Shown here piece by piece: positions 1 to 59,868 of a stretch of DNA of 64,000 nt. Position 1 is the first letter of the stretch; every line of letters starts with the position of its first letter. The stretch comes from Hirsutella rhossiliensis (lineage: Eukaryota > Ascomycota > Sordariomycetes > Hypocreales > Ophiocordycipitaceae). The stretch covers positions 558,001-622,000 of the forward strand of contig NW_025408669.1 of NCBI RefSeq assembly GCF_020360975.1, in the 5' to 3' direction. The notes beneath the pieces were generated by a model, which had not been told where the DNA came from, did no database searches, and saw only the letters and a list, made by a program, of their open reading frames with translations. Made by a program: the position numbers and the translations under genes.

Positions 1-1085
1 GAGCGTTCTTTTAAGACTATAGGAAAAGAAACTTAGTCGTTTTTAATACTTAGAAAGAAGGATAGTATACTAGACTCTATATATTCTTAGAAGTATAGCG
101 GTAGTTTCTTTATATCCTCTAAGTTCCTTATAACTTTACTTATATACTAGTCCCTTATACTACTTAGGAAGAAGGGTAGGAATATAGCTACTTAGCTTTA
201 ATAATAATTTAATACTAAGTTAAAAGTATAGTTAAGCTATACTTTAAGATAATTTAATAGCGATACTTAAAGGTTAAAGTAATTTTAAAGTAAAGGTATA
301 AGGTAATATAAGAAGCCCTATAAATAAATAAAATCTTATACTAAGACTAGTATTTCTTTAAGCTAGATAAGAGGATAAATATAAAAGGCTATATCGATAG
401 GCTAGTATATAGAATCTAAGCTATCGCGGTAAATAAACTTAATTATATATAAGCGATATTATAAGGTAGCGGAGTTTCTTAGTAGTTTAATACTAAAGTT
501 AAATAACTATAAAGGATACTATTTAATTAAGGTTTAATAACTTTTAGCGGAGTCTTTTTTATAAGGATTCCTAGGTATAAATAGATTTACTAATATAACT
601 ATATTATTTTAGGAGATTAAGAAGAATAAGACCTCTAAGAAGTCTTAGAGGTAGTTAACCTTTAAGATAGGCCTAGCGGATAGAAACTACTACTTTAAAG
701 AGATATAGAACTAGCTTATATAGTAAGGAGAGTAAGAAAAGAGCTAACTATGCTAGCTATTATTATAAAGTAACCTAACTTAATCGCTTAAGCTATACGC
801 GGTTTCTTTATAAAACTCCTCTTTAAAAGGACCCCTAACTATTTAATTACACTAATAGGAATCGAGAATAAGCTTAGACCTTTATTACCTTAAGCATTAA
901 CTAAATTAAGCTCCTTATCTAAACTAAGTAGCTTTTCCTTAAGTAACCTTAAGATAGGATCCCTACCTTAGAATCTATAAAGGAGAGAGGCGCCCTTACT
1001 AGTCCCTTTATCTATATAAAAACAATGCTTTTATTTTCCCCCTTAAATATATAGCTAATTAGGCCTATTCCTTACCCGCTACTAA
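1..1085. repeat. Repeat H, left copy, first part (RIP-degraded, unidentified)
   Basis: AT-rich sequence nearly without CA or TG. Bases 1-840 match the reverse complement of about 61740-62568 and bases 841-1085 match the reverse complement of about 59620-59866, so the same repeat is present inverted at the right end of the window. The left copy lacks the Fot1-like insertion seen in the right copy. Read on the plus strand, several hundred bases form one frame broken only by TAA and TAG, as expected of RIPed coding sequence, but I recognise no domain. The repeat continues at 7260 after the composite retroelement. Confidence 0.7.
1081..1085. repeat. Left 5-bp target-site duplication (ACTAA) of the composite element
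   Basis: ACTAA directly precedes the left terminal repeat and is repeated at 7260-7264 directly after the right one. The empty site is visible in the inverted H copy around 59615-59625, where the sequence runs through without an insertion. Confidence 0.92.
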
Positions 1086-1158
1086 TGTCGCGTATACTAT
1101 ATGCGTTAATTGACGCTGTCGCTTGTATCTGACAGGCGGCCATATCTTTTTCGCGAGA
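1086..1158 (+). repeat. Left 73-bp terminal repeat of the TRIM-like element
   Basis: Begins TGTCGCG and is nearly identical to 7187-7259. It differs only at the last eight bases, TCGCGAGA here against TCGTGACA on the right. TCGCGAGA is the end of the Copia A LTR at 6970, so the left repeat seems to have acquired its last bases from Copia A during recombination. Confidence 0.88.
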
Positions 1159-1172
1159 GTTATGAGCCCGGG
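1159..1172 (+). promoter_or_regulatory. Copia-type primer-binding site (half-tRNA initiator Met)
   Basis: GTTATGAGCCCGGG follows the LTR directly. It is complementary to the anticodon arm (GGGCTCATAAC) of eukaryotic initiator tRNA-Met. Drosophila copia is known to prime from such an internally cut initiator tRNA. The same site recurs at 6971-6984, and RIPed versions occur after the other copia LTRs in the window. Confidence 0.75.
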
Positions 1173-1306
1173 AGGAATAGAATTCCTATACCTTCCGGCT
1201 GCTGCAAAAGGCACCTTTCTTGCATCCCTCGTGGCTTCCTTTTACCCCTCTTACTAAAAAAGCCGATTTTTAACCGACTTTTCTGCCCCCCTCTTCTTTC
1301 GCAACG

Positions 1307-1738
1307 ATGACGAAAATCGACTCCTCTGCCGTCCCTACGGTCCGTAGGACGATTCTTGCAGAGCCCCAAGATTGGGATAAGTGGGTAAAGGAGCTACGGG
1401 CTCGTGTGGACAGAACCATCCACAATTTGGTCTTCTCTGACAAGCAGGACCCTCTCGAGCCCCCTCTTCGTCCTAGGGCAACGGAATTTGCAGAGGGAGC
1501 TACCCTCTTCTCCGAGCTAACCTCTGCACAACAGAGAGCTTTTTCTGCTGCCTTAGGCGACTACGAGAGTCACCGAAAGGAATACCTCTACGAAACGAAG
1601 CTACTAACGGCTGCTCGTACGGCGATAACGGAATCCGTTAGTGCCGCAAAGTTAATCACTCTTCGAGAAGAAGAGACTCCTAGGCAGTGGCTTTTAAGCT
1701 CGAGACCTCGACAGCTCCTCGAGGGGCTATATGACTGA
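1307..1738 (+). pseudogene. Copia A gag, N-terminal part
   Basis: A 143-codon frame starting at the first ATG after the leader, with a composition like copia Gag (charged, helical, no membrane segment). It ends at TGA 1736-1738. A second frame, starting at ATG 1731 inside an ATGACTGA overlap, continues with Gag-like sequence. The RIPed second copy (about 45030-45460) has the same arrangement, so this may be an ancestral frameshift or a programmed one rather than damage unique to this copy. Confidence 0.6.
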
Positions 1739-2571
1739 CCGTATTAGGAAGACCTATACGGCCCACCTAGGAGCCTTTTCTGCTAGGAACCTGCTAGCTT
1801 CTTCGTGGCTAGCTAAGTGGGAAGAAATCCTAGGAAGCTAACCAATACTTCCTCACAGAAGCTCTTTCCGGCCAGTGGCTACGGGATATATCTCTGCTAA
1901 TAAAGCCTATTAGTGACGGTTACTCGACTATCTTTCGAGAGGCTAGCCGGGAACTAGACGAAGAGGCTGCCAGAGTACAACAGCAAGCAGTCTTGTTCCT
2001 TCGTGGCCAGCACTCGACCCAGACGGCTCGACCTGCTGCCCCTGCAGCTGCTGCAGCCCCTATTGCTGCGGCTCCCGCTGCTGCTGCTGCTGCGGCTGTT
2101 GCTCCTTCGGCTCCTCCTCCCTCGAGAGCATCAACACCGTCATCAACGGCTGCCCTAGGCCCGGCCCCGGCTCCGCCTCTTGCTCCGGGCCCGGCCCCGG
2201 TCCCGTCAGTCAGACCGGCCCGACTAGTCCCCCAATGGACCTTTCAGTCCGTTAGTCGAAAAATCAGGGAACTAGTCGAAATCGAACCTCGTCAAAATCA
2301 GCAACAAGGGGTAAAAAGGGGGGGTTTTCAAGCAGACCTTCCGGACCGGGACGAGGATTCCTCGAAGAAACAACGTACGAGGAGGAATCGACCTACCTGC
2401 CAAGCGTGCAAAAAGCCCCATCGGCTAGAAGACTGCTGGCAGGTCTTCGAGGAAAACCGACCCAAAGGAGTCAACCCTTCAAAGAGGCTACAAGAAATAG
2501 TACAACAGTCTCTTAAGGAGGACCCCTCGTTGCCGAAGAAGATAGACGAGATTCGGGTTGCTAAGAAATAG
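1731..2571 (+). pseudogene. Copia A gag, C-terminal part with zinc knuckle (frame-broken)
   Basis: Continues Gag in a second frame to about 1831. There two bases are missing relative to the RIPed copy at 45.5 kb, and the frame shifts again; the rest reads in a third frame from about 1840 to TAG 2569-2571. It contains an Ala/Pro-rich linker (about 2030-2210) and a CCHC-like knuckle, C-x2-C-x3-H-x4-C, at about 2398-2436 that would bind RNA. TAG 2569 is the kind of stop that CAG to TAG mutation gives, but the other copy also has TAG here, so it could be a natural gag-pol stop. This Gag cannot be made intact. Confidence 0.7.
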
Positions 2572-5500
2572 CAACTAACGCCGCTACCGCAAATTCGAGG
2601 AAAAATCGTTGGTATAGCAAATCAGGCCTTCGTCTTCCCTACGGATCAACAAGGCCAAGACCAACCGTTAGAACCCTCCGACTATCCCCTACGAAAATCA
2701 GCTATCCTTGACTCTGGTGCTTCCCTCGACATATGCAATACACTCTCACGATTCCGGTCCTTTAAGAAGGCACGAAGGGAATATCTTATTGCCGGGGAAT
2801 CAACCGTACGGATAGAGGGATACGGAAGGGTGAATTTCACGATGAAATTACCTAACGGATCTATACGAATTCTTCGACGAAAAAGGGTAGCTTTTTGCCC
2901 TCGATTTTCAACGAGCCTGATTTCCTTCCGCCTTCTTCGAGAGGAAGGAATCTTCTGGGATACGACGTCTGAGCCCACGAGGCTAGTCTAGAAGAATCAG
3001 ACTATTGGGCTTATCGAGGAAAAATTCGGTCAATTTGTTCTCGAATTCCGACCTATCCTTAGGAAGGAATCTCTCGAGAAGTCAGCTTTCCCTACTAGGA
3101 GGGTAGGATCTAAGGACCCTCTTCCAGCAGCCCAAGGAGACGGCATTCTTTGGCACGCACGACTTGGTCACCCGGGCCCCTTAGCTTTACATAAGCTAGG
3201 ACAACAACAGGGCGTACGAATAAGGGGACCAAAGACCGTCGAATGCGAACACTGCGGCCAAGGAAAGACCAGGAGACGAATTTCCAGACGAACACCTTTA
3301 CGGCCGGACCAGCCGTGTGAGGAAATTTGGGTCGACTGGACCGACGTCTCGAGGGATCAGGAAAGCTTCGTCAGGGTGATGTTTTTCACAGACGCTTTTT
3401 CAGGGATGGTTTTCCCCTATTTCTTACGGACCTACCTAAGCAAGCACAACTGGTCTGCCCTCCGGGACTTCGTTAACTGGATGAAATCCCACTTTGGCTA
3501 CGAGGTAAAGAAGATACGGTCTGACGGAGAGCTATTTACGAAGGATATCTTAAATTGGCTTCGAAAAAGGGGCATTTACCCTCCCGTCAGCACCGAATAC
3601 CCAGGCCCAGAACGGAGGGGCAGAAAGATCAGGGGTGCTGTGATGGAAAGGGCCCGTACAATGAGACTTGCTGCAAGGCTTCCACACGACCTTTGGAGGG
3701 AAGTCGTTGAGACCGCCTGTTACCTTCGGAACCGGACCCCTAGAGGGACTACCCAAGGAACAGACTGGAAATCCCCCCTCGAGCTCTTTACGAAGAAGAG
3801 GGCCTCGCTAGCCCACCTTCGTGCCTACGGCTGCAAGGCATACGCTATGACTGCCGATGCACAGCTAAAAAGGAAGAAGAAAAGAAAGCTTGATCCTAGA
3901 GCCTTTGTTGGTTACCTCGTTGGTTATAATTCTACGAATATCTTCCGGATCTGGATTCCTCTTCTACGAAAGGTTATTTCGACTAGGGATGTGATTTTCG
4001 ACGAATCTAGCTTCTTCGACGGAAAGAGGGATCAACAGCCCCTCTTACTCTCACAACGTCAGCTAATTCAGAAGATCCAAATCCCCCCTTCCCAACAGTC
4101 TCAAGAAGAGGCCCTAGACGAGGAAACGGAAGAAGAAACCGACGTCGAAGCAGTAGAGGATAACGCCGACTTCGAGGAAGAAGAAGAAGAGGAAGCTAGA
4201 TCAGATGATCTAGACGAAGAAGGAGACTATAGGAAAGCGGTAGAGCTGGAATACGCCTGCCTACCTACGCCTCCTCTTACGGAAGAAGAAGATCTAGAAG
4301 CAGCTTTCTTAGTCAGTCTTCCCGTCTCGACCCCTAAGGGGGTGGGAAAGGCACCTCTCTCGAAGGATTACCCGGCTGCCTTTTTATCCCTGCTTCGAGA
4401 AGCAAAGGAAGGTATAGGGCCCGATACGGATACGAAAGAAGACCAGTTTCTCCCCTATTTCGATCGTTATTCCGACTTCTACCCAACGCCAATAGAAGAC
4501 GGTTCCCACGGAGCGTTCACAGCAGGCCGGCTCTTTAAGACACAGCTATCAGCAAGGAAGGTACACAAAAGAGACCTCACGGACCCACCAGCAAACCAGA
4601 AGCAGCTAGAAAAACACCCCTTTAGAGACCAGTTTTTCCAGGCCCAGAAAGACCACCTAGCCTCACACGAAGAGATGGGGTCTTTTGAAGAGGTCCTCAA
4701 GGAAAAGGCAAGAGGAAAACAGGTCCTTGGCTGCAAGTGGGTCTTTATCTATAAGACTGATAAACACGGCTTCCTTCAAAAGTGCAAAGCCCGGCTAGTT
4801 GTCTGTGGGAATCAACAGGAAAAAGGGGATCTTCCTACTAGGGCAACTACCCTAGCAGGGATGTCTTTTCGGACCCTTATGGCTATAGCAGCAGAATTCG
4901 ACCTCGAGCTCGAACAGATGGATGCAGTCAACGCCTTTGTTAACTGTCCACTCGAGGAAGAAGAAGAAGTTATCTACATGCGCCTTCCACCAGGCTTCCA
5001 ACAGCCAGGAAAGGTTCTACGGCTTAGGAAAGCTCTATACGGACTACGAAGATCACCCCTTCTTTGGCAACAGCATTTAACAGGTTCCCTCGAAGCCCTA
5101 GGCTTCACGAAAGTCCCTCAGGAACCGTGTATAATGCAGAAGGGTAAAATCACGGTCTTCTTCTACGTCGACGACATTATCTGGGCCTACCCAAAAGAGG
5201 AAGAAGCTGCTGCTAGGGAGGCTATACGAGGCCTGCAACAAAGGTATAAGATGACCAGGCTAGGGGAGCCAAAGTGGTTCCTAGGGATACGAATCCTTCG
5301 GAATAGGTCCCAACGGACTATCTGGCTTACCCAGGACGCCTATATCGATAAGGTAGCTTATAAATTCCTCCCTAAATCCCTCGATAAGAAGCTTCCCTCT
5401 ACGCCTATGTCAGACGAAGAGCTTTTACCTGATCCGTCCTTTTAAGCCAGGGAGCAAGAGAAACACCAATATCAACAGAAGGTGGGCTCCCTGCTTTTTT

Positions 5501-6219
5501 CAGCTATTTCTACTAGACCGGATATCTCTTTTACGGTCTCCCGGCTAGCTAGGCACAACCAGAATCCTAGCCCTAGGCATCAAGAAGCAGCAGACAGAGC
5601 TATCCTTTATCTCTATTCAACGAGATCACATGGTCTGCGCCTAGGAGGGCAGGGAAGGAAACAAGCTGCCGAAATCTTCCTCTGTTCGAGCGATTCGTCC
5701 TTTGCGGACAATTCCTTAGACAGAAAGAGCTCACAGGGGTATATTATGTCCCTTTTTAGAGGAACTATTGCTTGGAGAGCTTCGAAGCAGGCTACCGTTA
5801 CGACTTCTAGTACGGAGGCAGAGCTACTAGCTCTTTCAGAAGCGTCAAAAGAAGCGATTTTCCTTAGCCGGCTACTAATATCGTTACGACTGCAAATACC
5901 GTCCCCGTTAGCTATAGAATGCGATAACACGCAGACTATACGAATTCTCACGGAGGAAAACAGCAAGCTGTCGACCCGGCTACGGCATATCGATATCCAC
6001 CAGCATTGGTTACGCCAAGAGGTCTAAAGGGGACTTATTTCCGTCCGTTGGGTTCCAACGGCATCGATGAAAGCCGACGGTCTTACGAAGCCCCTGCCGA
6101 AGCAGAAGCTGGCTGTCTTTTTACAGCAAATAGGGCTAGAAGACGTTCGAGAAAAGCTGTCCTTAGAGGCCCGCCTTGAGAGTCTACGAGAGGAGCTAAT
6201 GGCACGTACGAGAAGGTGA
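2572..6219 (+). pseudogene. Copia A pol: protease, integrase, reverse transcriptase, RNase H
   Basis: One frame runs throughout. In order: retropepsin with DSGAS (2713-2727); GAG-pre-integrase zinc motif (HARLGH at about 3150, CEHCGQ at about 3245); integrase core (first Asp about 3331, IRSDGE about 3520, ME in MERAR about 3645); an acidic Glu-rich linker (4100-4240); RT with intact YVDD (5164-5175); RNase H (about 5500-6130). In-frame stops TAG 2989-2991, TAA 5443-5445 and TAA 6025-6027 break it. Each is explained by C to T in a CA context, i.e. light RIP. The product ends at TGA 6217-6219. The catalytic residues are otherwise intact, so it was active recently. Confidence 0.88.
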
Positions 6220-6488
6220 CGTCTGCAGCCGAAGAAAAGGAAGAGGTTTTTCCCTTTAGAGGGCCCCCTATTTTGATTAGGTTTTTCCCTTCTAAGAAGG
6301 CCCCCTTTCTTATAGGACTTTCCCCTCTTTAGGCCCCTTTTCCTTAAGTAGGTCTAAAAGAGCCTAGGGACCCGAAAGGGCCCCTGCTTTCCTCGAGTAA
6401 AGGGAGAAGTGCAGAGCTAAGAACCTCCTCTATACGCTCACCAGCCCGAAGCCGTATTAGCTATGCCCTTAAGGGGCAGGCCATAGCT

Positions 6489-6497
6489 AAGGGGGTG
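6489..6497 (+). promoter_or_regulatory. Polypurine tract of Copia A
   Basis: AAGGGGGTG directly precedes the TGTCACGA start of the Copia A 3' LTR. A near-identical tract, GAGGGGGTG, precedes the right short LTR at 7178-7186, showing that the TRIM and Copia A share their reverse-transcription signals. Confidence 0.75.
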
Positions 6498-6970
6498 TGT
6501 CACGAAGCGTGGCCTGATTTCGCAGTTCTCGGAGATATCCCTTGGCACGAGGGACCTAGGAAGCTGAAAAACAGGTTTTAAGGAAGGAGCTGAAAAGAGG
6601 TGCAGAAAGGAGGGTGGGGGCATGAGGGGAAGCAGAAGTGGCGATGGCTTCCTATGGAGGTGGCGAGAGATAAGACGGATATGCCGGCAACGGCTGGAAA
6701 GGAGGGGAAAAACCGGCAAAAAGCTCGGTAGTCGAAAGGACATTAGTGGCTTCTTTAAGCAGGATCTTCTTTGTTAATTGAGATACTAGAAGGGTATAAA
6801 GAGGGGCGTTGGATAGAGGAAAGAAGGAAAATTAAGGCAATACAACAATCACTCCCCTACTGCAATTGCTGCCCCCGCAAGATTCAAACATCTCTGCCCT
6901 ACCTGTCCGACCCCTTACTTCTAATTTCACCTTCGTGCATTTTCATGCACTTCTCGCATCTCTCGCGAGA
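6498..6970 (+). repeat. Copia A 3' LTR (un-RIPed, 473 bp)
   Basis: Starts TGTCACGA and ends TCGCGAGA, after the polypurine tract and before a second primer-binding site. RIPed copies are found at 44408-44884 and 56570-57046, and a fragment at about 40423-40560. No matching Copia LTR lies at the left end of the internal region; the short TRIM LTR takes its place. The reading frames seen inside it on either strand are chance. Confidence 0.88.
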
Positions 6971-7186
6971 GTTATGAGCCCGGGCGGAGGTTACCTCCGG
7001 AACTTCCGGTGACTGCGCACGCACTTCTGGCTAGCCTGGCGCGCATTACCCGAAGGCCCGTGGTTCGAGTCCCGCCAGCGCAATTAAGCGCGGTTTCAGC
7101 ATGGGGCCTGCCTATAAAAATTCCCGCTGTGGTCTAGGATATCCAGGTATCCCGGGACGAATTGACCCGATATCCCTGAGGGGGTG
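6971..7186 (+). other. TRIM body: second primer-binding site, tRNA-like module, polypurine tract
   Basis: Non-coding sequence between the Copia LTR and the right short LTR. It begins with the primer-binding site GTTATGAGCCCGGG (6971-6984), continues with an imperfect inverted sequence (about 6985-7008), the tRNA-like module at 7014-7082, and ends with a purine tract (7178-7186). There is no open frame of note. A minimal element with only priming signals and terminal repeats must be mobilised in trans, presumably by Copia A, whose signals it shares (inference). Confidence 0.75.
7014..7082 (+). other. tRNA-like module with RNA polymerase III B box
   Basis: GGTTCGAGTCC at 7062-7072 matches the B-box consensus GGTTCGANTCC exactly. 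A looser A-box-like sequence, TGGCTAGCCTGG, lies at 7028-7039. TGCGCAC (7014-7020) can pair partly with CAGCGCA (7076-7082) in the manner of an acceptor stem. The T stem does not pair well and the A-B spacing is short, so this is not a functional tRNA; it may be a degenerate tRNA piece captured by the TRIM. Confidence 0.45.
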
Positions 7187-7259
7187 TGTCGCGTATACTA
7201 TATGCGTTAATTGACGCTGTCGCTTGTATCTGACAGGCGGCCATATCTTTTTCGTGACA
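7187..7259 (+). repeat. Right 73-bp terminal repeat of the TRIM-like element
   Basis: Starts TGTCGCG and ends TCGTGACA with the canonical CA end. It is the same length as 1086-1158 and differs from it only in the last eight bases. It is followed by the target duplication at 7260-7264. Confidence 0.9.
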
Positions 7260-7900
7260 ACTAACGACCCTTTTAAACGTATAAAGGAGTAAAAAGCTTA
7301 TAACTATACCCCTATTAATAGCTTAATAAGAAGCTAGTAAGGAAGAAAGGTAGATAGTATAGCTACTAACTCGCCCTAGGACTCTAAAGTTACTAAGCGC
7401 TTAGTTAATTACCTTAAGGCTAAAGACTTTAGTAACGCTTATAGCGCGCTTTATTACTCCTTAGAAATAAAGTATAGTAATAGCCTTTTTAGCTATAGTC
7501 TTTATAAGGTTTATACTTAGCTTTAAACCCTTTTAAGTTAAAGGAGTTAAAAACCTAGAAATATATTAAAACTACTACTAGGATATTAACGACTATAATT
7601 CTATATATTTATATAAAACTACTAATAACGTAATAATACTTAGTTAATAAGACTTTATAGCTTATTTAATCTAGCTATACCTAAAGCTATAAACTAGTAA
7701 AGACGCTAACTACTTTATTTCCCTAACGCCCTTAAGAATAATAAGCGCGAATACTTAGGAGCGTATATAAGGGGTAGTAGATAATTATTTAAAGAAGGAA
7801 GTCTATAAGTAAAGATAGGAAAGAGCTAAATAAGTAGCTTATAAGTAAAGGGAGGAATAAATAATATAAAGGGAAGGGATTATAGTAAAGGAGAAAAGTT
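7260..7900. repeat. Repeat H, left copy, second part
   Basis: Starts with the right target duplication ACTAA (7260-7264). It matches the reverse complement of about 58984-59620, ending in the shared GAGAAAAGTT at 7891-7900. It is strongly RIPed (no CA or TG over long stretches). Beyond 7900 the two copies diverge; in the right copy the Copia C fragment begins there. Confidence 0.7.
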
Positions 7901-44407: not shown

Positions 44408-44884
44408 TATCGCGAAGTATAGCTTAATTTTATAGTTTTTAGAGATACCCCTTAGTAAGAGGGACTAAGGAAGCTAAAAAACCGGTTTAAAAGAATAAGC
44501 TAAAAGGAGGTAAAAAGAGGAGGGTAAGGGTATAAAGGGAAGTAAAAGTAGCGATAGCTTCCTATAAAGGTAGCGAGAGATAAGATAGATATACCGGTAA
44601 CGGCTAGAAAGGAGGGGAAAAACTAGTAAAAAGCTTAGTAATTAAGAGGATATTAATAGCTTTTTTTAGTAAGATCTTTATTATTAATCGAGATACTAAA
44701 TAAGTATAAAGAAGGGCGTTAGATAAAGAAAAGAAAGAGAATTAAAGTAATATAATAATTACTCTCTTACTATAATTACTACCCTTATAAGAATTAAATA
44801 TCTTTAACCTACCTATCTAACCCCTTACTTTTAATTTTACCTTTATATATTTTATATATACTTCTAATATCTCTCTTTATAAAA
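44408..44884 (+). repeat. Copia A copy 2, 5' LTR
   Basis: Aligns with 6498-6970 after C to T and G to A changes. It is followed by GCTATAAGCC, the RIPed primer-binding site. Confidence 0.82.
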
Positions 44885-47251
44885 GCTATAAGCCTAAGAG
44901 GAATATAATTCCTATACCTTCTAGCTACTATAAAAGGAACCTTTTATATATCTCTTATAGCTTCCTTTTGCCCCTCTTACTAAAAAAGCTAATTTATAAC
45001 TAACCTTTCTACCCCCCCTTCTATAATAATATTAAAAAACGATTCTTCTACCTCCCTTATAGTCTATAAAGTAATTCTTATAAAGCCCTAAGATTAAAAT
45101 AAGTAGGTAAAGGAGCTATAAGCTTATATAGATAGAACTATTTATAATTTATTCTTCTTTAATAAGTAGGACCCTCTTAAGCCCCCTCTTTATCCTAGGG
45201 TAATAGAATTTATAAAGGGAGCTTTCCTATTCTCTAAGCTAACCTCTATATAGTAGAGAGCTTTTTCTTCTACCTTAGGTAGCTACGAGAGTTACTATAA
45301 AGAATACCTTTATAAGACGAAGCTACTAACTACTATATATATAGCGATAACGGAATCTATTAGTACTATAAAGCTAATCTCTCTTTAAGAAGAAGAGACT
45401 CTTAGGTAATAGCTTTTAAAGCTTAAGACCTTAATAGCTCCCTTAGAGGCTATATAACTAACTATATTAAGAAGACCTATATAGTATACCTAGGAGCTTT
45501 TTCTACTAAGAACCTACTAGCTTCTTTATAGCTAGCTAAGTAAGAAGAAATCCTTAAGGAAGCTAACTAATAGTTCCTAATAAAAGCTCTTTCCGGCTAG
45601 TAGCTATAAGATATATCTCTATTAATAAAGCTTATTAGTAATAGTTACTTAACTATCTTTACAGAAGCTAGCTAAAAACTAAATAAAGAAGCTACTAAAG
45701 TATAATAATAAGTAGTCTTATTCCTTTATAGCTAGCACTCGACCTAGATAGCTCGACCTACTACCCCTATAGCTACTATAGCCCCTCTTACTACGGCCCC
45801 CGCTATTATTGCTATAGCTGCCCTTCTAGCTCCTCTTCCCTCGAGAGCCTTAACCTTATCTTTAACAGCTGCCCTAGTCCCGGCCCTAGCTCCGCTTATA
45901 GCTCTAGGCCCGGACCTATTAGTTAGACCGGCCCGACTAGTCCCTTAATAGACCTATTAGTCCGTTAGTTAAAAAATTAAGGAACTAGTTAAAATCGAAC
46001 CTTATTAAAATTAGTAATAAAGGGTAAAAGGGGGGGGGGTTTTAAGTAGACCTTTTAGATTAGGATAAGGATTCGTCGACGAAATAAAAGACTAAATAAA
46101 ACGGCTACTTAGCCTATAAATCTATTAGCTATCGGTTATTATAATACTAATAGGTCTTTAAGGAAAACTAACTTAAAGGATTTAACCCTTTAAAGAAGTT
46201 ATAAGAAATAATATAATAGTCTCTTAAGGAGGACCCTTTATTATAAAAGAAGATAGATAAGATATAGGTTACTAAGAAATAGTAACGAACGCTACTACCC
46301 TTATTTAAGCTATAAGTTTAAGGAAAAATCATTAGTATAGTAAATCCGGTATTTATCTTCCTTATTAATTAATAAGGCTAAGACTAACTATTAGAGCCCT
46401 TTAATTATCCCTTATAAAAATTAGCTATCTTTAACTTTAGTGCTTCCCTTAATATCTATAATACCCTCTCTTAATTTTAGTCCTTTAAGAAAGTATAGAG
46501 GGAATACCTTATTACTAAGGAATAAACTATATAAATAGAGGGATATAGAAGGGTAAATTTTACGATAAAATTACTTAATAGTTTTATATAAATTCTTTAA
46601 TAAAAAAGGGTAGCTTTTTACCCTTAATTTTTAATAAGCTTAATTTTATTTTTACTTTCTTTAAAAGAAAGGAATCTTTTAAGATATAGCGTCTAAGCCT
46701 ATAAAGCTAGTCTAAAAGAATTAGATAATTAGGCTTATTAAGGAGGAATTTAGTTAATTTATTCTTAAATTCTAACTTATACTTAGGAAGAAACTACTTA
46801 AGAAGTTAGCTTTCCTTACTTAAAGGAGGGTAGGTTTAAAAAACCCTCTTTTAGTAGCTTAAGGAAACGGTCTTTTTTAGTATATACGACTTAGTTACCT
46901 AGGCCCCTTAGCTTTAAAGAAGCTAGGTTAATAATAAGGCGTATAAATAAGGAGCTTAAAGACCGTTAAATATAAATATTACGGCTAAGAAAAGACTAAA
47001 AGATAAATTTCTAGACGAACCCTTATATAGCTAGACTAGCTATATAAGGAAATTTAAGTTAACTAAACTAACGTTTTTAAGGACTTAAGAAAGCTTATTA
47101 AGGTAATACTTTTTATAGATACTTTTTTAGGGATAGTTTTCCCTTATTTCTTATAAACTTACCTAAGTAAGTATAACTAGTCTACCTTCTAAGATTTCTT
47201 AGCTAAATAAAATCCTACTTTAGCTATAAAGTAAAGAAGATTTAGTTTAAT
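44885..47251 (+). pseudogene. Copia A copy 2: gag, protease, start of integrase
   Basis: Collinear with 1159 to about 3525 of copy 1 and useful for recognising its 2-base deletion at 1831. The Ala/Pro linker and the protease region (about 46430) can be traced. It ends at TTAAT (47247-47251), the target of Copia B. Confidence 0.8.
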
Positions 47252-47958
47252 TATAAGAATATACCCTTATATTCCTATTTTACTATTATAAAGAAATAAT
47301 AGGTATAGGGAGGCTCTATAAAATAAGCTAGTAAAGAGAGGCTCTATAATATAGTCTAAGGGAATAACCCTTAAAGACAAAGACCTCTACTAAATATCTA
47401 TACCTTCCTTTAGGAAAGGCGGGTCGAGATAAGCCTATCCTAATAAAATAAAATATATATAAAATGCATAAGTTAATTACGAGTAGAACGGATACCCTAT
47501 TGCCTATTTTAGCTAAGCGGTTCCGAAGATATCCGCGATACGAGAATAGGTAGGGCATAGAACATTCTAGTTAAATCTACTACTTATACTAGAACCTATA
47601 GTCTTACGTTAACTATTACGTTATAATTAGACCACCTACTAAGTTAAGAAGACATACGATAGATAGAGCTTTTTAAGTACTATAGAATATACTAGAAAGC
47701 TAATAGAAAGCTAACTAATTAGTCTACTAGTAGGCGAGCAATAGTCTATAAAAGACGAAGGATTTCCCTAGGAGTAGTAGATAGAATAAGCAAGTTTATA
47801 AGTATCCTTTATAACGCTATTCTTTTAATATATTATTTAGCCCCTTATATACTCGTTATAAATTCCGGACGAAATCCTACCCTATACTCCTTCGACCGAT
47901 CTTTCCGCTTACGTTATCGATTACCCGATTCTACGCTTATTACTTATACCTTCTTATA
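47252..47958 (+). repeat. Copia B 5' LTR
   Basis: 707 bp, starts TATAAGAATATACCC and ends TTCTTATA. The minus-strand frame inside it (47328-47558) is chance. Confidence 0.88.
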
Positions 47959-50900
47959 GGTTATAAGCCTATCTTCTCTATAAGTCGGGTAATAACTTCG
48001 AAATTCTAATACTAACTATACGACCTCGAATTATCTAAAATAGGCTCTAGGGATAAGTTTAAATTTACTAAACTTAAGGGTAGTTCTAACTATACCTTTT
48101 AGGCTATTTAAATATAGGCTCTTTTAGTTAAGGAGAAGCTTTCTACTTTTATATAGTAAGAAAATTACTTAAAGATAGAAGAAGCACTTATATTAATTTT
48201 TCTTCGCATTAAAGATAGTCCTTTAACCTAAATAAAGCATATAATAAATACTAAAGAGGTATAGGATAGGTTAAAAAACCTATATAACCCTATTTCCTTT
48301 ACTTCGAATTACCTACTTATAAAGAAGCTTTTTAATACTTTAGTAAGGGATTTCGAATCCCTAGAAGGCTACCTAAATAAGGTAAAAGAGGTATTTAAGG
48401 AGCTAAAAGCATAGAATATTATAATTCTAAAAGTAGTTATTATAGCTTAGATTTTAAATAGCCTTTCGGGCTCGTTTTCTAGCTATATAACTAATATAAT
48501 ATAAGCTCCTTAAAATAACTCGGAGGCTTTTAATCTAGAGTCTCTTTCTAGTAGTCTTATAGACGAATTTAAGAGGACTAAGTCTCTAGAAAATCCCCTT
48601 AAGTAGGCTTTCTTTACTAAGAAGCCCTAGAAAAAGATAAAAATTATATTATAATGCACTTACTATAAGAAGAAAGGGTATTTAGTTAAAGATTACTACT
48701 ATTTTTACCCGGAAAAGGCCCTTAAAAGCTTTTCTAAAAATTCAAAAAATTTAAATAAAGGAATACCTTCTAAGAGGCCTAGAAAACCTTCTATAGAAGG
48801 AAATCCTATTAAATTAGACTCTTACGTCGATAAGAAGACGAAAAATCCCTCTTCTCTATATATATTAGAAGCAGAAAAAGTAGAAATCGATAATTAAATA
48901 GATAAAGAACCGGAAATCGATTTTTCTATTTCTCCTCCTACCCCTAGAGGTTATAAAGGCTCCGAAGGAGAAGCAAAGGTATATATCTCTTCGAATATCC
49001 TTAAAAAAGCCGTATTTAATAATAGGTAAATAGGACCTTTAAATTCCTCTCGAATTAAAGACCTTATATATAAGGTAAAAGAGAAGGAAATCCCTTATAA
49101 AACCTTAGAGAATAGAAACTTCTATAATTTTATATACGATACCGGTACTACTAAGTATATAGTATCGGAAAAGAAATTCCTTATTAATTTTCGAACTATC
49201 TCTACTAAGGTTAATTAGGGAAAGGCATCTTATATAGTTATTAAAGGCTATAGAGATCTTCTTTTTAGATTTCCGAATAATAAAAGGCTATTTATCTTAA
49301 GAAACTGCCTTTTTATACTTAAATTAAGGGTAAATATTATAAGCTAATCGTATTTTAAAAATACTTATGCCTTTATTAATAGCAAGGAAATTTTCCTACT
49401 AAATAACTAGGCTAATATTATATCTAAAGGAAAATAGTAAGATAACCTTTATATCTTCTCTTTAGAAATTCCTTTCTTAAAGAAGAAGACATTCCTATAT
49501 AATATTAATAATATAAGGAATAATATAAAGGACCTTAACTTTTATTTATAGCATTTAAGGCTAGGATATATAAGTCTTAAAGCCTTACTAGAAACCTTTA
49601 AAAGATATAATAAAGATATAACTATCCCTAAGAAGGATATTATAAAAATAAAAGAATATAAGGCTTATATTAAAGTAAAGGTAACTAATAAAAGGAATAA
49701 ATCCCTATTTAATAAGGTATATAATTACCTTAATAGAGTTACTATTAATATTTAGGGCCCTATAAGGACCCCTACTTATAATAAATATACCTCCTTTATA
49801 TCCTTTTTAGATATAGGGATAAGATATTTAGAAATATCTTTTATAAAGTCTAAGGCAGAAGCCCTAGATAAATTCTTAGAATATAAAGCCTTAGTTAAAA
49901 ATAACCGGGATAATATTACTATAAAGGAAGTCTTTTCGGATAACGTAAAAGAATTCCTATATAAAATAAAACCCTACTACTTAAGAAAGGGAATTAAATA
50001 TTATACTAGCCCTCCTAGGACTCTTAAATTAAACGGAGTAATAGAAAGGATTAATAGGACTATTTTAAATAAAGTCCGAGCTATTTTATTTATAGTAAAA
50101 CTACCTAAATATCTATAGGGAGAAGCTATTTTAATAGCAGCCTACTTATATAATAGGACCCCTTACTTACGAATAGGCTTCTAAACTCTTATAGAAAAGA
50201 AGGAAAATAAATCTCTAGCCTTAGAAGACTTAGAGAAAATTAAGACCTTCGGAAGTACTATTTATTATAGAAATAAAGACCCCTTAGATAAGCTAGAAAT
50301 AAGAGCTTATAAGGGTATTATTATAGGCTATACTAAAAATGCTTATAAAATATATAACTTTTCGAAAAGAAAGGTAATAATTTCTAGAGATATTATTATC
50401 CTAGAAAATAAATTTATAGAAAATTAAAAAGAAGAAGACCTTAAGGACTTTAATTTTAATACCTTACCTTCTATAAATAAGGTCCTAGATAATTATTTAT
50501 AAAGGGAACCTATATATAAAGAAGGTAATAACTCTTCTTTAAAAGAAGAGGAAAATAACCCTCCTATAAAGAAGGAAGATAACCCTCCTATAGAGAAGGA
50601 AGATAACCCTCCTATAGAGAAGGAAGATAACCCTCCTATAAAAAAGGGAAATAATCCTCTTTTAGAAAAGGGATTAAATAAGGATCTAAAAATCCGTATT
50701 AATATACCTAAGAAGCTAAATAGATTTTATAAAGACTATATTATATACCCCGAAATAAACACTATATTAAATAGTAAAAGTAAAGAGACTATTTTATCTT
50801 TACTAGAAAATAAGGATCCTATAAAGCCTAAAATATTTAAATAGGCTATAAATAGCTTAGAAGCTATAGAATAGAAAAGAGCTATATTTCTAGAAATAAA

Positions 50901-52846
50901 AGAGCTCTTAAACTAAAATACCTAGGAATTAAAGCCTCTTCCTAGCGATAGGGAGGCCCTAGGCGGCCGTTAGGTCTATAAAATAAAGCGGGATAATAAT
51001 AATAATATTATTAAATATAAAGCCCGCTATATAGTATAAGGATTTAATTAGGTCTACGGCCTAGATTATTTAGAAACCTTTTCTACGATAGTAAGACCCG
51101 AATCTATTAGAATGCTACTTATAATAGCTATTTTTAATAATTATACTCTACTATAATATAATATAAAAATGCCTTTATATATACCGAAATAGATATAGAT
51201 ATTTATATAAAACTCCCTATAGGCTATAAAGAGCTAATACTTAAAGACTAGTTTAATAAAAACTAGTATAAGTATAATATTAGCTACTTATAGTTTCTAG
51301 AGCTATATAAAAAGAAAAGGCTAGTAGCAAAATTAAAGAAAGTATTATACGGCCTTTAATAAAGCCTAAAGCTTTAGTATAACTATCTTAGCTCTATATT
51401 AGCTAAGATAGGATTTTCGGCCCTTCTTATAAATAAAGGGGTATTTATAAATACGCAATATAAAATTATAATAGCAATCTACGTAGATAACCTCCTAATA
51501 ATAGGGCCTAATAAAGGTATAATAAATAGTCTACTTAAAAGAGTAGTAGATTATATAAAGGTTTAGCCTCTAGGCGAACTAAAAGACTTCTTAGGAATAT
51601 ATATAATTATAAACTAGAGTAGAAAGGAGATATTTATATCCTAGGAAAATTATACTCGTAATAAAATACGAGAATATAATAAAGAAGACTTAGGGACTTC
51701 TAATACGCCTACTATAGTAAGAGTAAAGCTTAAAAAGGCTACTATAACGCCTTTATAAAAAGAAATCCTTATTTACTAAAGGGAAATAGGGGCTTTATTA
51801 TATCTAGCTATAATAAGTAGGCTAGACATTTTATATACTATTATTTCCTATGCTAGATTTGCTTCTAAACTAGATAATACGTATTTTAAAGCATTAAATA
51901 CTATCTAGAAATATTTAAATAAATAGCCTAACTTAGGGATAATTTATTACTATAATATCCCTTATACTTATAATTTTATAAAAGGTTATTCCGACGCTAG
52001 CTAGGCGTTTAACCTTATAGATAGAAAATCCGTTTCTAGATACTATTTCTATATTTATAAAAATATTATAATTTAGGCTAGCTAGAAGCAAAAATCTATA
52101 GTCCTATTAACCTATAAAGCTAAGTTTATTGCCCTTAGGGAGGCTAATAAAGAAGCTTTATATCTAAATCGGCTATTTTATTCGATAAATAATAGCTTAT
52201 CTATTAGAATTCCTAATACTATACCTCCTATCTTAACGGATAACGAGGCAGCTATTAAATTAGCTGAAAATCCGGAATTTTATAAAAAGACAAAGTATAT
52301 AGATAATACTTACTTCTAAAGCTAAGAAAGTATTAGGGAAAAGAAGATCCGGATTTTCTATATTAAATCTAAAGATAATATTGCCGATATATTTACTAAG
52401 GAACTAAAAAGAGAAAAGTTCTTTAAGTTCTTAGAGCTTCTTTCCCTTAGGGAATTAAAAGAGCCTTAAAAAGAAAAGCCTATATCCCTTTAATAAAGGT
52501 TTTTTAGCTATCTTTCGCTTTCTTAGCTTTTCCTTTATATATAACTAATAGGTTTTATTTTCCTTTAAAAAGGTTTCTTATTAGTAAAAAACAACTTATA
52601 AAAATAGGGTTTTTCCTTATTAAAGGTTTCCTATAATAACTCTATAAGGCTTTTTCCTTATAAAGGTTTACCTAAAAAGAGAAGAAAAAATTATAACTAT
52701 AACTAGGATTTTTCCTACTAAGGTTTTTCCTAGAAAGGGTTTTAAAATTTTCCCTTATATTCCTATTATATACCTTACTCTTAATAAGGATAATTCTATT
52801 ATAAAAGAAATAACTAGTAAAGAGCACTATTTACTTAGTACTTTTT
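47959..52846 (+). pseudogene. Copia B gag-pol remnant
   Basis: In order: gag with a knuckle remnant (about 48655-48700); protease with YDTGTT (about 49135); pre-integrase LRLGYISLKALLE (about 49558); integrase core with SDNVKEF (about 49935) and GVIERINRT (about 50035); the 24-bp repeats; RT with KYKARYIV (about 51015) and YVDN at 51480-51491; RNase H from about 51780 to 52420. Stops are TAA and TAG only. Related to Copia C at 57-59 kb. Confidence 0.78.
50552..50660 (+). repeat. 24-bp tandem repeat in Copia B
   Basis: About four units encode DNPPIEKE-type octapeptides in the acidic linker between integrase and RT. The number of units could vary between copies. Confidence 0.85.
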
Positions 52847-52855
52847 AAGGGAGGC

Positions 52856-53551
52856 TATAAGAATATACCCTTATATTCCTATTTTACTATTATAAAGAAA
52901 TAATAGGTATAGGGAGGCTCTATAAAATAAGCTAGTAAAAAGAGGCTTTATAATATAGTCTAAGGGAATAACCCTTAAAAATAAAGACCTCTACTAGATA
53001 TCTATACCTTCCTTTAGGAAAGGCGGGTTAAGATAAGCCTATCCTAATAAAATAAAATATATATAAAATATATAAGTTAATTACGAGTAGAACGGATACC
53101 CTATTGCCTATTTTAGCTAAGCGGTTCTAAAGATATCCGCGATACGAGAATAGGTAGGGCATAGAACATTCTAGTTAAATCTACTACTTATACTAGAACC
53201 TATAGTCTTACGTTAACTATTACGTTATATTTAGACCACCTACTAAGTTAGGAAGACATACTATAGATAGAGCCTTTTAAGCACTATAGAATATACTAGA
53301 AAGCTAACTAACTAGTCTACTAGTAGGCGAGCAATAGTCTATAAAAGATAAAGGATTTCCCTAAGAGTAGTAGATAGAATAAGTAAGTTTATAAGCATCC
53401 TTTATAACGCTATTCTTTTAATATATTATTTAGCCCCTTATATACTCGATAAAAATTCCGGACGAAATCCTACCCTATACTCCTTTAACCGATCTTTCCG
53501 CTTAAGTTATTAATTACCCGATTCTACGCTTATTGCTTATACCTTCTTATA
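52856..53551 (+). repeat. Copia B 3' LTR
   Basis: 696 bp, similar to the 5' LTR, with a short deletion of a duplicated CTAATAGAAAG-like stretch. Confidence 0.88.
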
Positions 53552-53556
53552 TTAAT

Positions 53557-56500
53557 AAAGAGCTATTTATAAATAATATCTTAAATTAGCTTTAAAAAAG
53601 TAGTATTTTACCCTTCTTATTAGTACTAAATACCTAGGCCTAAAATAAAAAGGCAGAAAGATTAAGAGGTGCTATAATAAAAAGGGCCTATATAATAAGA
53701 CTTACTATAAGGCTTCTATATAACCTTTAAAAGGAAGTCGTTAAGACCGCTTATTACCTTTAAAACTAAACCCCTAGGGACCTTAAGGACCCTAGGGAAC
53801 TAAACTAAGGAATAGACTAAAAACCCCCCCTTAAGCTCTTTATAAAAAAGAGGGCCTTACTAGCTTAATATTATACCTATAGCTATAAGTTATATACTAT
53901 AACTATTAATATATAAGTAAAAAAGAAAAAGAAAAGAAAGCTTAATCTTAGAGTATTTATTAGTTACTATATTAGCTATAACTTTATAAATATCTTCTAG
54001 ATCTAGATTCCTTTTTTATAAATAGTTATTTTAATTAAGGATATGATTTTAAATAAATCTAGCTTCTTTAATAAAAAGAGGGATTAATAGCCCTTCTTAC
54101 TCTTTTAACGTTAGCTAATATAAAAGATCTAAATCCCCCCTTCTTAATAGTCTTAAGAAGAGGTTATAGATAAGGAAATAGAAAAAGAAACTAATATTAA
54201 AGTAGTTAAGGATAACGCTAACTTTAAAGAAAAAGAAAAAGCTACTTTATTAAGTAATCTAGATAAAGAAGGAGACTATAGGAAAGTAGTAAAGCTAGAA
54301 TACGCCTACCTCCCTATACTTCCTTTTATTTAATAAGAAGATCTAAAGGTAGCTTTTTTTATTAGTCTTTCTATCTTAACTATTAAGGGAGTAAGAAAAG
54401 CACTTTACTTAAAGGATTACCTAGCTACCTTTTTATCCTTACTTTAAGAAGTAAAGGAAGGTATAGGGCCTAATATAGTTATTAAAGAAGACTAATCTCT
54501 CCCTTATTTTAATTATTTTTCCGACTTTTATCTAACGCTTATAAAAGATAGTTCCTATAAAATATTTATTATAGGTCGGCTCTTTAAGCTATAGCTATTA
54601 GTAAGGAAGGTATATAAAAGAAGCCCTTTAAACCTACTAGTAAACTAAAAGTAGCTAGAGAAATACCCTTTTAAAGACTAGTTTTTCTAGGCCTAAAAAG
54701 ACTACCTAGCTTTATATAAAGAAATAAGGTCTTTTAAAAAGGTCCTTAAGGAAAAAGTAAGAGGAAAATAGGTCCTTAGCTATAAGTAGGTCTTTATTTC
54801 TAAGACTAATAAATATAGCTTCCTTTAAAAGTATAAAGCCTAGCTAGTTAGCTATAAGAATTAATAAGAGAAAGGGGATTTACTTACTAAGGTAATAACC
54901 TTAATAAGGATAACTTTTTAGACCTTTATAGCTATAGTAGTAGAACTTAACCTTAAACTTAATTAAATAGATACTATTAACGCTTTAATTAACTGCCCCT
55001 TTAAGGAAGAAGAAGTTATCTATATATACTTTATACTAAGCTTTTAATAGCTAAGAAAGATTTTATAGCTTAGGAAAGCTTTATATAGACTATAAAGATT
55101 ACCCCTTCTTTAATAATAGTATTTAATAGGTTCTCTTAAAGCCTTAGGCTTTAAGAAAGTCCTTTAAGAACCGTATATAATATAAAAGGGTAAAATTATA
55201 GTCTTCTTTTATATTAACGATATTATCTAAGCTTACTTAAAAGAAAAAGAAGTAATTACTAAGGAGGCTATAAAACGCTTATAATAAAAGTATAAGATAA
55301 TAAGGCTAAGGGAGCTAAAGTAGTTCTTAAGGATATAAATCCTTTAAAATAAGTCCTAATAGACTATCTAGCTTACCTAGGATACTTATATAGATAAGGT
55401 CGCTTATAAATCCCTTTAACTCCCTTAATAAGAGGCTTCCCTTTATACTTATATTAAATAAAGAGTTTTTACTTAATCTAGTCTTTTAAGCTAAGGAGTA
55501 AGAGAAATACTAATACTAATAGAAAGTATACTCCTTACTTTTTTTAGCTACTTTTACTAAACCGGATATCTCTTTTATAGTCTATAAGCTAGCTAAGTAT
55601 AACTATAATCCTAGCCTTAAGTACTAATAAGTAGTAGATAGTGCTATCCTTTATCTTTATTTAATAAGATTATATAGTCTATACTTAAGAAGGTAGGAAA
55701 GAAAGAAATTAGCTATTAAAATCTTCTTTTATTTAAGCGATTCGTTCTTTATAGATAGTTCCTTAAATAAAAAGAGCTTATAAGGATATATTATATCCCT
55801 TTTTAAAGGAACTACTACTTAAAGAGCTTTAAATTAAGCTATTATTATAACTTTAAGTATAAAAGTAAAGCTACTAGCTCTTTTAAAAGCGTTAAAAGAA
55901 GCGATTTTCCTTAGCTAGTTACTTATATCTTTATAACTATAAATTCGGATCCTATTATTTATAGAATATAATAATATATAGACTATATAGACTTTAATAA
56001 AGGAAAATAGTAAGCTATTAACCTAGCTATAATATATTAATATCTATTAGTATTAGTTACGCTAAGAGGTTTAAAGGAGACTTATTTCTATTTATTAAGT
56101 TTTAATAGTAATAATAAAAGCTAATAGTCTTATAAAGCCCTTATTAAAGTAAAAGCTAGCTATCTTTTTATAGTAAATTAGGCTAAAAGATATTTAAAAG
56201 AAGCTATCTTTAAAAGCCCGCTTTAAGAGTTTATAAGAGGAGCTAATAGTATATATAAGAAAGGAAATATTTATAGCTAAAGAGAGGAACTAAGACTTAT
56301 TTTAAAGGAGGGCCCTTAGTTTAATTAAGACTTATTCTTCTTAAAGGCCCCTTTTTAGGGACTTATCCTTAAAGAAGACTCCCTTTCTTATAAGACTTAA
56401 TTCCTCCTTAGGCCCCCTTTTCCTAAAAGTAGGTTTAAAAGATCCTAGGGCTAAAACCTAGATTTCTTAAGTAAGAAATAAGTATAAATAAAGACCTCCT

Positions 56501-56569
56501 TTATATACTTACTAGCCTAATTATTTAGCTTTGCCCTTTCTATAAAGGTAGGCTATAACTAAGGGGGTA
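53557..56569 (+). pseudogene. Copia A copy 2: integrase remainder, RT, RNase H
   Basis: Collinear with about 3525-6497 of copy 1. The RT box reads YIND at 55210-55221 where copy 1 has YVDD. It ends in the purine tract AAGGGGGTA. Confidence 0.8.
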
Positions 56570-57046
56570 TATTATAAAGTATAGCTTAATTTTATAGTTC
56601 TTAGAGATATCCCTTAATAAGATAAACTAAGGAAGCTAAAAAACCGGTTTAAAAGAAGGAGCTAAAAGGAGGTATAAAAAGAAAGGTAAGGGTATAAAGG
56701 GAAGTAAAAGTAGCGATAGCTTCTTATAAAGGTAGTAAGAGATAAGATAGATATACTAGTAACGGCTAGAAAGAAAGGGAAAACCTAGTAAAAAGCTTAG
56801 TAGTTAAGAGGAAATTAATAGCTTCTTTAAGTAGGATCCTCTTTATTAATTAAGATACTAAATAAGTATAAAGAGGGGCGTTAAATAAAAGAAAGAAGGA
56901 GAATTAAAGTAATATAATAATTACTTCTTTATTATAATTACTACCCTTATAAGAATTAAATATCTTTACCTTACTTATTTAACCCTTAACTTTTAATTTT
57001 ACCTTTATATATTTTATATATACTTCTTATATTTCTTTTTATAAGA
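56570..57046 (+). repeat. Copia A copy 2, 3' LTR
   Basis: Starts TATTATAAAG (RIPed TGTCACGAAG) and ends TTATAAGA, equivalent to TCGCGAGA in copy 1. Confidence 0.8.
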
Positions 57047-58779: not shown

Positions 58780-59868
58780 CCTTTACTTTTAAAGATATAA
58801 TAAGGGTCGATTAGGTTTTTAATTAAGGTTTTATAGGAATATAATATAATATATTTCTAAGAAATCCTTTAGTAAGGACCTTAGCTTTATTATTTAATAA
58901 AAGGACTTTATTTCCTTTTATTAAAGTATAGGTATTATTAAAATAAGATTAAGATAGTATATTTACTTTTAATTTAAGTATATAAAACTTTTCTCCTTTA
59001 CTATAATCTATTCCCTTTATATAATTTATTCCTCCCTTTACCTATAAGCTACTTATTTAGCTCTTTCTTATCTTTACTTATATACTTCCTTTTTTAGATA
59101 ATTATCTACTACCCCTTATATATACTCCTAAGTATTTACGCTTATTATTTATAAAAGCGTTAAGGAAATAAAGTAGTTAATATTTTTACTAGTTTATAGC
59201 TTTAAGTATAGCTAGATTAAATAAGCTATAAAGTCTTATAGACTAATTATTATTATATTACTAGTAGTCCTATATAAATATATTAAATTATAGTTATTAA
59301 TATCCTAGTAGTAGTTTTAATATATTCTTAGGTTTTTAACTCTTTTAACTTAGGAGGGTTTAAAGCTTAATATAAACCTTATAAGGACTATAGCTAGAAA
59401 GGCTATTACTATACTTTATTTCTAAGGAGTAATAGGGCGCGCTATAGGCGTTACTAAAGTCTTTAGCCTTAGGGTAATTAACTAAGCGCCTAGTAATTTC
59501 GGAGTCTTAAGGTAAGTTAGTAGCCGCGCTATCTACCTTTCTTCCTTACTAGCTTCTTATTAAGTTATTAGTAAAGGTATAGTTATAAGTCTTTTACTTT
59601 ATATATTTAAAGGAGTCGTTAATAATAAGTAAGGAGTAGGCCTAATTAGTTATATATATAAGGGGGAGAATAAAAGCATTGTTTCTATATAAATAAAGGG
59701 ACTAGTAAGGGCTCTTAGCTCTCTCCTTTATAAACTTTAGGGTAGAGATCCTATCTTAAGGTTACTTAAGGAAAGGCTACTTAGTTTAGATAAAGAGCTT
59801 AATTTAGTTAACGCTTAAGGTAATAAAGGTTTAAGCTTATTCTTAATTCCTATTAGCGTAATTAAATA

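Follow-up and report, generated by a model that had tools for sequence, protein, structure and literature searches.

A composite retrotransposon in which a Copia unit is joined into a terminal-repeat retrotransposon in miniature (TRIM) is present in the 64,000-nucleotide stretch of Hirsutella rhossiliensis contig NW_025408669.1 (positions 558,001 to 622,000, forward strand) that was analyzed here and is hereafter called the window. This element probably belongs to a large class of chimeric insertions that are made during reverse transcription, by intermolecular second strand transfer at a primer-binding site (PBS) shared by the partners. In the genome searched (81.8 Mb, 40 contigs), 57 of the 445 exact matches to PBS joins, with tolerance for repeat-induced point mutation (RIP), connect Copia-type with TRIM-type sequence, compared to none among the 100 matches listed at a comparable site, the junction of the polypurine tract (PPT) and the long terminal repeat (LTR). 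All 16 composites for which both ends were read carry identical 5-bp target duplications. The partnership between a TRIM and its helper appears to be readable from such sequences, as the join names the partners, and these observations suggest that tiny elements without genes share a particle with a larger Copia element when they are copied.

Anatomy of the window element

The composite consists of the target duplication ACTAA, an LTR of the TRIM family denoted T1, the PBS, the internal region (body) of the family denoted Copia A, a PPT, a single Copia A LTR, a second PBS, the T1 body, a PPT, the other T1 LTR and again ACTAA, in this order (positions 1081-7264; Table 1). Both joins carry the same 22 bases, TCGCGAGAGTTATGAGCCCGGG, at 1151-1172 and 6963-6984. 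The sequence-only reading of the window had described this arrangement, namely, a Copia body with one LTR inside a TRIM, joined to it at the shared PBS through 22 identical bases, with 73-bp outer LTRs flanked by ACTAA and an identifiable empty site, and it was recovered in all these respects. The empty site lies in an inverted copy of the host repeat. Alignment of the joined flanks of the hybrid through this copy, near 59621-59629, gives identity at 440 of 500 positions (88%). With regard to the outer LTRs, the same reading correctly confined the differences to the last eight bases; within that region only two positions actually differ, 69 (C/T) and 72 (G/C), the LTRs being equal at 71 of 73 positions. 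The assignment of a Copia-type end to the left T1 LTR also holds, given that free T1 LTRs end before the PBS in CGTGACA or its RIP-type form CGTGATA and that Copia A LTRs end in CGCGAGA.

Stop codons divide the Copia coding region into five consecutive frames that are 139 to 817 amino acids long (a sixth frame, which overlaps them on this strand, was ignored). Three of the five match the Pfam domains Pol_BBD, gag_pre-integrs, rve, SH3_retrovirus, RVT_2 and RVT_3, the gag_pre-integrs, rve and RVT_3 matches scoring below the Pfam cut-off. A single frame contains rve (residues 112-199, below the curated cut-off), SH3_retrovirus (268-342) and RVT_2 (573-792); with the integrase upstream of the reverse transcriptase, Copia A belongs to the Ty1/copia superfamily. 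Around the hybrid, the dinucleotides CA and TG are reduced to 0.02-0.05 of expectation, versus 0.66-0.70 inside it; this depletion points to RIP in the flanks and, with it, to a filamentous fungus. The hybrid itself is little affected by RIP and its LTRs are alike save for the two end differences, which indicates that it is young.

A nested insertion was rejected for the window because the left inner join lacks a second Copia LTR. For comparison, a T1 nested inside a Copia element is present elsewhere in the genome (L019, duplication TAAGT).

Table 1. Features of the window element and composites with both ends read
Feature	Position	Strand	Target duplication	Remark
Left target-site duplication	1081..1085	+	ACTAA	matches right copy
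Left T1 LTR, 73 bp	1086..1158	+		Copia-type last bases TCGCGAGA at 1151-1158
PBS 1, GTTATGAGCCCGGG	1159..1172	+		first 13 nt complementary to tRNA-Met(CAT) gene L093, up to tRNA position 38
Copia A internal region, gag-pol with interrupted reading frame	1159..6497	+		Pfam domain matches
Copia A PPT AAGGGGGTG	6489-6497	+		end of internal region
Single Copia A LTR	6498..6970	+		matches solo and paired Copia LTRs elsewhere in genome
PBS 2	6971..6984	+		start of T1 body
T1 body	6971..7186	+		PPT adjoins right LTR; as in free T1 L002, L004, L005, L007, L008, L011, L013, L014, L018, L019
Right T1 LTR, 73 bp	7187..7259	+		own-type end CGTGACA
Right target-site duplication	7260..7264	+	ACTAA	matches left copy
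Empty site in inverted relative of host repeat	59615..59635	-		alignment of joined flanks
Type A	window		ACTAA
Type A	C10:570 kb		TATAT
Type A	C1:9594 kb		ACTAT
Type A	C4:5805 kb		ATACC
Type A	C10:561 kb		TTAAT
Type A	C2:8054 kb (L029)		CCTTA	two extra T1 units: three tandem T1 units after Copia unit, one duplication
Type A with T2	C13:820 kb		ATAAA
Type B	C1:1487 kb		ATAGT
Type B	C11:1081 kb		CTTAT
Type B	C2:826 kb		ACTAT
Mismatched ends, Copia LTR / T1	C1:5437 kb		ATTAA
Mismatched ends, Copia LTR / T1	C5:6043 kb		AATAC
Mismatched ends, Copia LTR / T2	C15:589 kb		AATCC
Mismatched ends, T1 LTR / T2	C10:1306 kb		AGTAA
Mismatched ends, T2 LTR / Copia	C13:266 kb		TTAGT
Mismatched ends, third LTR family (TGTCGAGAAG..CGCGAGA) / T1 body-T1 LTR	C22:196 kb (L015)		CACGG

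Three families with a common primer-binding site

T1 is about 370 bp long in total, has 73-bp LTRs (TGTCGCGTATAC..CGTGACA), and its body contains no reading frame of at least 100 amino acids; given the small size of its LTRs and body, the lack of coding capacity and the presence of a PBS, a PPT and a target-site duplication, it is a TRIM. Free T1 elements, the presence of which had been anticipated from the window, are common in the genome, and matching 5-bp duplications flank all 10 distinct elements that were read at both ends (11 entries, L013 and L020 being one element). Normal Copia A copies are likewise present, as are further hybrids with other target duplications. The Copia A LTR is about 475 bp long (TGTCGCGAAG..CGCGAGA), and three Copia LTRs have duplications that were read by eye (TTTAG, ATTAA and ATAAT in L032, L034 and L043, respectively). 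A second TRIM, T2, with an LTR of the form TGTCGGAA..CGCGACA, was met at the joins.

The PBS GTTATGAGCCCGGG is common to T1, T2 and Copia A. It is complementary over 13 nt to the tRNA-Met(CAT) gene, and the complement ends inside the anticodon arm; this tRNA, presumably the initiator tRNA, is the putative primer. Priming by a half-tRNA is known for Drosophila copia and for Ty5 (PMC10886601). A stretch of about 15 bp across the PPT and the LTR start, AGGGGGTGTGTCGCG, is common to T1 and most Copia copies, and T2 shares with Copia A the same PBS and a similar PPT. Given the shared PBS and the same or similar PPT, the Copia proteins could package, copy and integrate all three families.

The T1 and T2 bodies contain B-box/T-arm-like strings such as GGTTCGAGTCC (window 6985-7186; L036 and L037), and judging from these strings the bodies may be tRNA-derived. 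ARAGORN detected no tRNA in the window, and the Rfam tRNA family gave no match in positions 1000-7400; across the window, Rfam yielded just two weak matches, below the gathering score and within a GC-rich repeat.

Mixed joins across the genome

The 445 exact PBS matches comprise 269 joins of a Copia-type LTR end to a Copia body, 38 of a Copia-type end to a TRIM-type body, 19 of a TRIM-type end to a Copia body and 119 of TRIM to TRIM; the reversed-pattern controls gave 0 for each of the four patterns. Most of the 57 mixed joins are known as 30-base matches only. By body start, the 38 Copia-to-TRIM joins include 13 T1, 23 T2 and 2 others and, by LTR end, the 19 TRIM-to-Copia joins include 9 of the T1 type and 10 of the T2 type, a split to be read with the reservation that RIP can convert a T2 end into a T1-like end. 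The total of 57 is low in one respect, because the left join of the window element is classed as Copia/Copia on account of its Copia-type end, and is biased in the opposite direction by those "Copia-type" donors that belong to other LTR families (L015). Positional pairing of the mixed joins yields four pairs of type A and five of type B (both defined below) and leaves 29 Copia-to-TRIM and 10 TRIM-to-Copia joins unpaired, some of which are halves of type A or type B elements with the other join outside the pattern.

A looser PBS pattern gave 1,019 matches (3 and 7 in the reversed controls), and among the first 100 of these, 79 were matched, 13 mixed and 8 unclassed (13 of 92 classed). At the PPT/LTR junction, none of the first 100 of 537 matches was mixed (86 Copia, 14 T1; this control covers Copia and T1 only). 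The like-for-like comparison, with the PBS sample restricted to Copia and T1, is 6 of 78 mixed versus 0 of 100 (Fisher p = 0.006); with T2 included in the PBS sample, it is 13 of 92 versus 0 of 100 (p = 4e-5).

Composites delimited by a single target duplication

The 16 composites read at both ends fall into three groups: seven of type A (TRIM LTR / Copia body-Copia LTR / TRIM body-TRIM LTR), three of type B (Copia LTR / T1 body-T1 LTR / Copia body-Copia LTR) and six with mismatched ends, each with one body and no internal LTR. The duplications were called by script in 15 cases and by eye in L015. For types A and B, mostly the ends and joins were read, and the pairing of the ends rests on position together with the matching duplications. 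The composites were found by T1 LTR and two-join queries, and most queries and patterns span the PBS, the less biased searches being those with the T1 LTR alone (20 loci read) and with the PPT/LTR pattern. Three further loci stand outside the 16: C1:11404 kb (L088), the left end of which was not found in the stretch examined; the T2 type B element at C11:871 kb, for which the sequence read stops short of the right end; and L016, which has the same flanks as L015 on a different contig, so that this region is duplicated. With perfect duplications in 16 of 16 composites and no matches in the reversed-pattern controls, chance and misassembly were rejected as explanations. Mismatched terminal LTRs within one duplication imply that the chimera existed before integration.

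The exact right join of the window element was found only once in the genome, and the other copies that span this whole join are 87-92% alike to it, with RIP-type changes. Where a Copia LTR precedes a TRIM body, the match starts within the first 6 bases of the LTR in 10 of 12 loci and continues into the PBS; in the remaining two, it starts at base 22 (L030) and base 48 (L033).

The LTR ends, within the unique 5' region (U5), bear on the cycle in which the chimeras arose. In the six T1 elements of type A, the left LTR ends in CGCGAGA or a RIP derivative in four (one being CGTAAGA) and in CGTGACA or a derivative in two, and the right outer end is of the T1 type (CGTGACA or the RIP form) in all six. 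The T2 element of type A has its own end on the left LTR, and the T1 LTRs of type B keep their own end in three of three. Reverse transcription copies one U5 into both LTRs. The difference between left and right is thus not inherited, and four T1 elements of type A must each have arisen in the last cycle.

Comparison of the Copia bodies by transversions, over up to 560 bp (241 and 268 bases for two type A elements), places six of the seven type A bodies nearest, with 0 to 2 differences, to Copia copies not recognized as hybrid. For the body from the window, the closest copy is of type B (1 of 372), followed by one not recognized as hybrid (2 of 546). The bodies compared are the best matches to the window rather than a random set, "free" denotes copies not recognized as hybrid on the side read, and L033 is labelled free even though its locus holds a hybrid. 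Same-place duplicates were left out (L001, L079, L082 and L083 for the Copia bodies; L003, L006, L009, L010 and L081 for the T1-body tree), and some duplicate places were kept, e.g., L042/L062, L044/L080, L045/L053 and L013/L020. Similarity among the type B bodies at C11:1081 kb (T1), C2:826 kb (T1) and C11:871 kb (T2) means that part of type B may go back to a common origin.

Proposed mechanism

In the normal second transfer, the plus-strand copy of the PBS pairs with the PBS complement that forms the 3' end of the minus strand of the same element. The composites would arise if Copia and TRIM elements were co-packaged, with the Copia proteins packaging, copying and integrating T1, T2 and Copia. 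Having copied an LTR together with the tRNA attached to the template, the plus strand would terminate at its 3' end in a PBS copy and would often pair instead with the minus strand from a different family packaged in the same particle, i.e., second (plus-strand) transfer would be intermolecular. A single such transfer would yield a two-LTR element with mismatched LTRs. Further transfers, in which plus strands begun further upstream and carrying body-LTR-PBS likewise anneal to foreign minus strands, would produce LTR-(body-LTR)n chains with each join at the PBS. The window element, T1 LTR / Copia body-Copia LTR / T1 body-T1 LTR, would include two such joins, and the linear product would be inserted by the normal integrase reaction, which duplicates 5 bp of the target. 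A Copia-type end on the left T1 LTR could be produced if the minus strand overshot the PBS by about 8-12 bases into the Copia U5 and the heteroduplex was repaired to the Copia strand.

The joins lie at the PBS rather than at the PPT, which argues for second strand transfer over a homology search. Furthermore, the donor is a complete or near-complete LTR followed by the PBS, which is the structure of plus-strand strong-stop DNA and not that of packaged RNA: in the established scheme (PMC3187697), the former is U3-R-U5-PBS (U3, unique 3' region; R, repeated region), with only R-U5 before the PBS in the latter. We lean slightly towards the broader proposition that second transfer is promiscuous, any plus strand ending in a tRNA copy being able to anneal to any minus strand in the particle, and that chain-building generates mixed and tandem arrays which record the TRIMs that travel in the particles of each helper. 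If so, the arrays would be a genomic record of particle sharing between TRIMs and helpers, and the same reaction could be behind tandemly arrayed TRIMs in general. A two-element design for testing this would need only a shared PBS.

Several observations weigh against intermolecular transfer. In PMC5651808, the retroviral second transfer is described as generally intramolecular. The Copia-type end in four of six left T1 LTRs needs an extra step, either overshoot or microhomology at TTCG. Compared like for like, the PPT control is of modest strength, and the first 100 matches were taken in map order, not at random; queries spanning the PBS under-see other join sites. The "Copia-type end" is not confined to Copia, as one or more further LTR families have it too (L015). 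The TRIM-body pattern, in turn, accepts AGGAGGGG, the body start of another family, which accounts for 1 of the 38 Copia-to-TRIM joins and for 8 of the 100 TRIM-to-TRIM matches listed. Finally, the T1-body tree, with good support for 1 of 19 inner branches, is too weak to separate a single origin from multiple origins.

Alternative explanations

Of the alternatives, recombination of unintegrated Copia and TRIM cDNAs in the nucleus, by strand annealing or crossover at the 14-bp PBS and followed by integration, is unlikely. It predicts one duplication and mismatched LTRs just as intermolecular transfer does, but the shared stretch of about 15 bp at the PPT/LTR junction yields no mixed joins in the like-for-like comparison described above, and 14 bp is short for homologous recombination.

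The sequence-only reading had favored recombination of a one-LTR Copia circle into a resident T1 at the PBS. Such a reaction fits the ACTAA-flanked outer T1 LTRs of the window locus and its empty site, and type B elements would be its reciprocal products. As a general mechanism, it fails on the six composites with different outer LTR families and one perfect duplication, because a resident element would be expected to keep matching outer LTRs; a single crossover also leaves the Copia-type end at both joins unexplained unless gene conversion is added. Altogether, this origin appears very improbable. Even less credible is the suggestion from the same reading that the hybrid, with swapped LTRs, amplifies as a mobile unit: one genome holds seven type A copies that were read at both ends, and the three of these with matching end types (two T1, one T2) are compatible with it, but unit copying would make the ends alike, whereas the U5 ends differ in four of the six T1 elements of type A, and six of the seven type A Copia bodies are nearest to copies outside the recognized hybrids.

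Relation to known systems

LTR swapping between autonomous and non-autonomous elements, with exchange of the partner's LTR, has reportedly been described in soybean (Du et al. 2010, going by its title). Template-switching complexes as such are known already; what is new in the H. rhossiliensis composites is the join site, the cross-family partners, the frequency and the mismatched terminal LTRs. Sabot and Schulman (2007, PMC1950507) reported four complexes (two from Triticeae, one from rice and one from maize), each within one family, and proposed a switch between R regions, with the outer LTRs alike. The 10 composites of types A and B resemble these in the internal third LTR, the two bodies, the single 5-bp duplication and the apparent switching during reverse transcription, as well as in having outer LTRs alike at the family level; by contrast, the outer LTRs of the six mismatched composites are unlike, the partners belong to different families, and the joins number in the dozens. 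No switch between R regions was seen here, the joins read, in mostly PBS-anchored searches, lying at the PBS.

Tandemly arrayed plant TRIMs (Gao et al. 2016, PMC4717578) and Cassandra arrays (PMC7215508) have the structure LTR-(body-LTR)n, as does L029 with its three T1 units; the arrays described there consist of single TRIM families, whereas the present composites mix Copia with at least two TRIM families. The fungal Helenus TRIMs (Kojima 2024, PMC10886601) resemble T1 in a PBS complementary to the tRNA anticodon region, with tRNA-iMet as the most frequent match, and in 5-bp duplications. Their LTRs carry tRNA-like sequence; in T1, a B-box-like string lies in the body, and the tRNA searches described above gave no match. 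Their mobilization by Copia was deduced mainly from the shared PBS, to which the chimeras add physical evidence of a TRIM-Copia partnership. In the Cereba/Quinta pair of einkorn wheat, the helper was assigned by identical PBS, LTR termini and other criteria, akin to the approach taken here, and the corresponding passages of PMC11302176 contain no PBS-joined chimeras. For HIV-1 recombinants, PMC5651808 argues that second transfer can be intermolecular, as proposed here, on the basis of mosaic patterns in related genomes rather than cross-family joins. No report of LTR elements of different families joined at the PBS was found in the literature searched (titles and abstract starts, with subscription journals mostly outside).

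Other observations

At C7:1452223, a T2 LTR precedes a Copia body and, 5.85 kb further on, at C7:1458071, a T2-type LTR end precedes a T2 body; this is possibly a Copia-sized unit, the Copia LTR of which has a converted T2-type end. At C1:11033288, a T1-type end precedes an unknown body and, 5.6 kb further on, at C1:11038868, a Copia-type end precedes another unknown body, so that additional families may take part in the joins. The window also contains a diverged relative of Copia A (44410-57005) with an LTR at 44410-44875 and a body in two parts that are 72-76% alike to Copia A; it is split by about 6.3 kb of other sequence and lies in an AT-rich stretch that is RIP-mutated in appearance.

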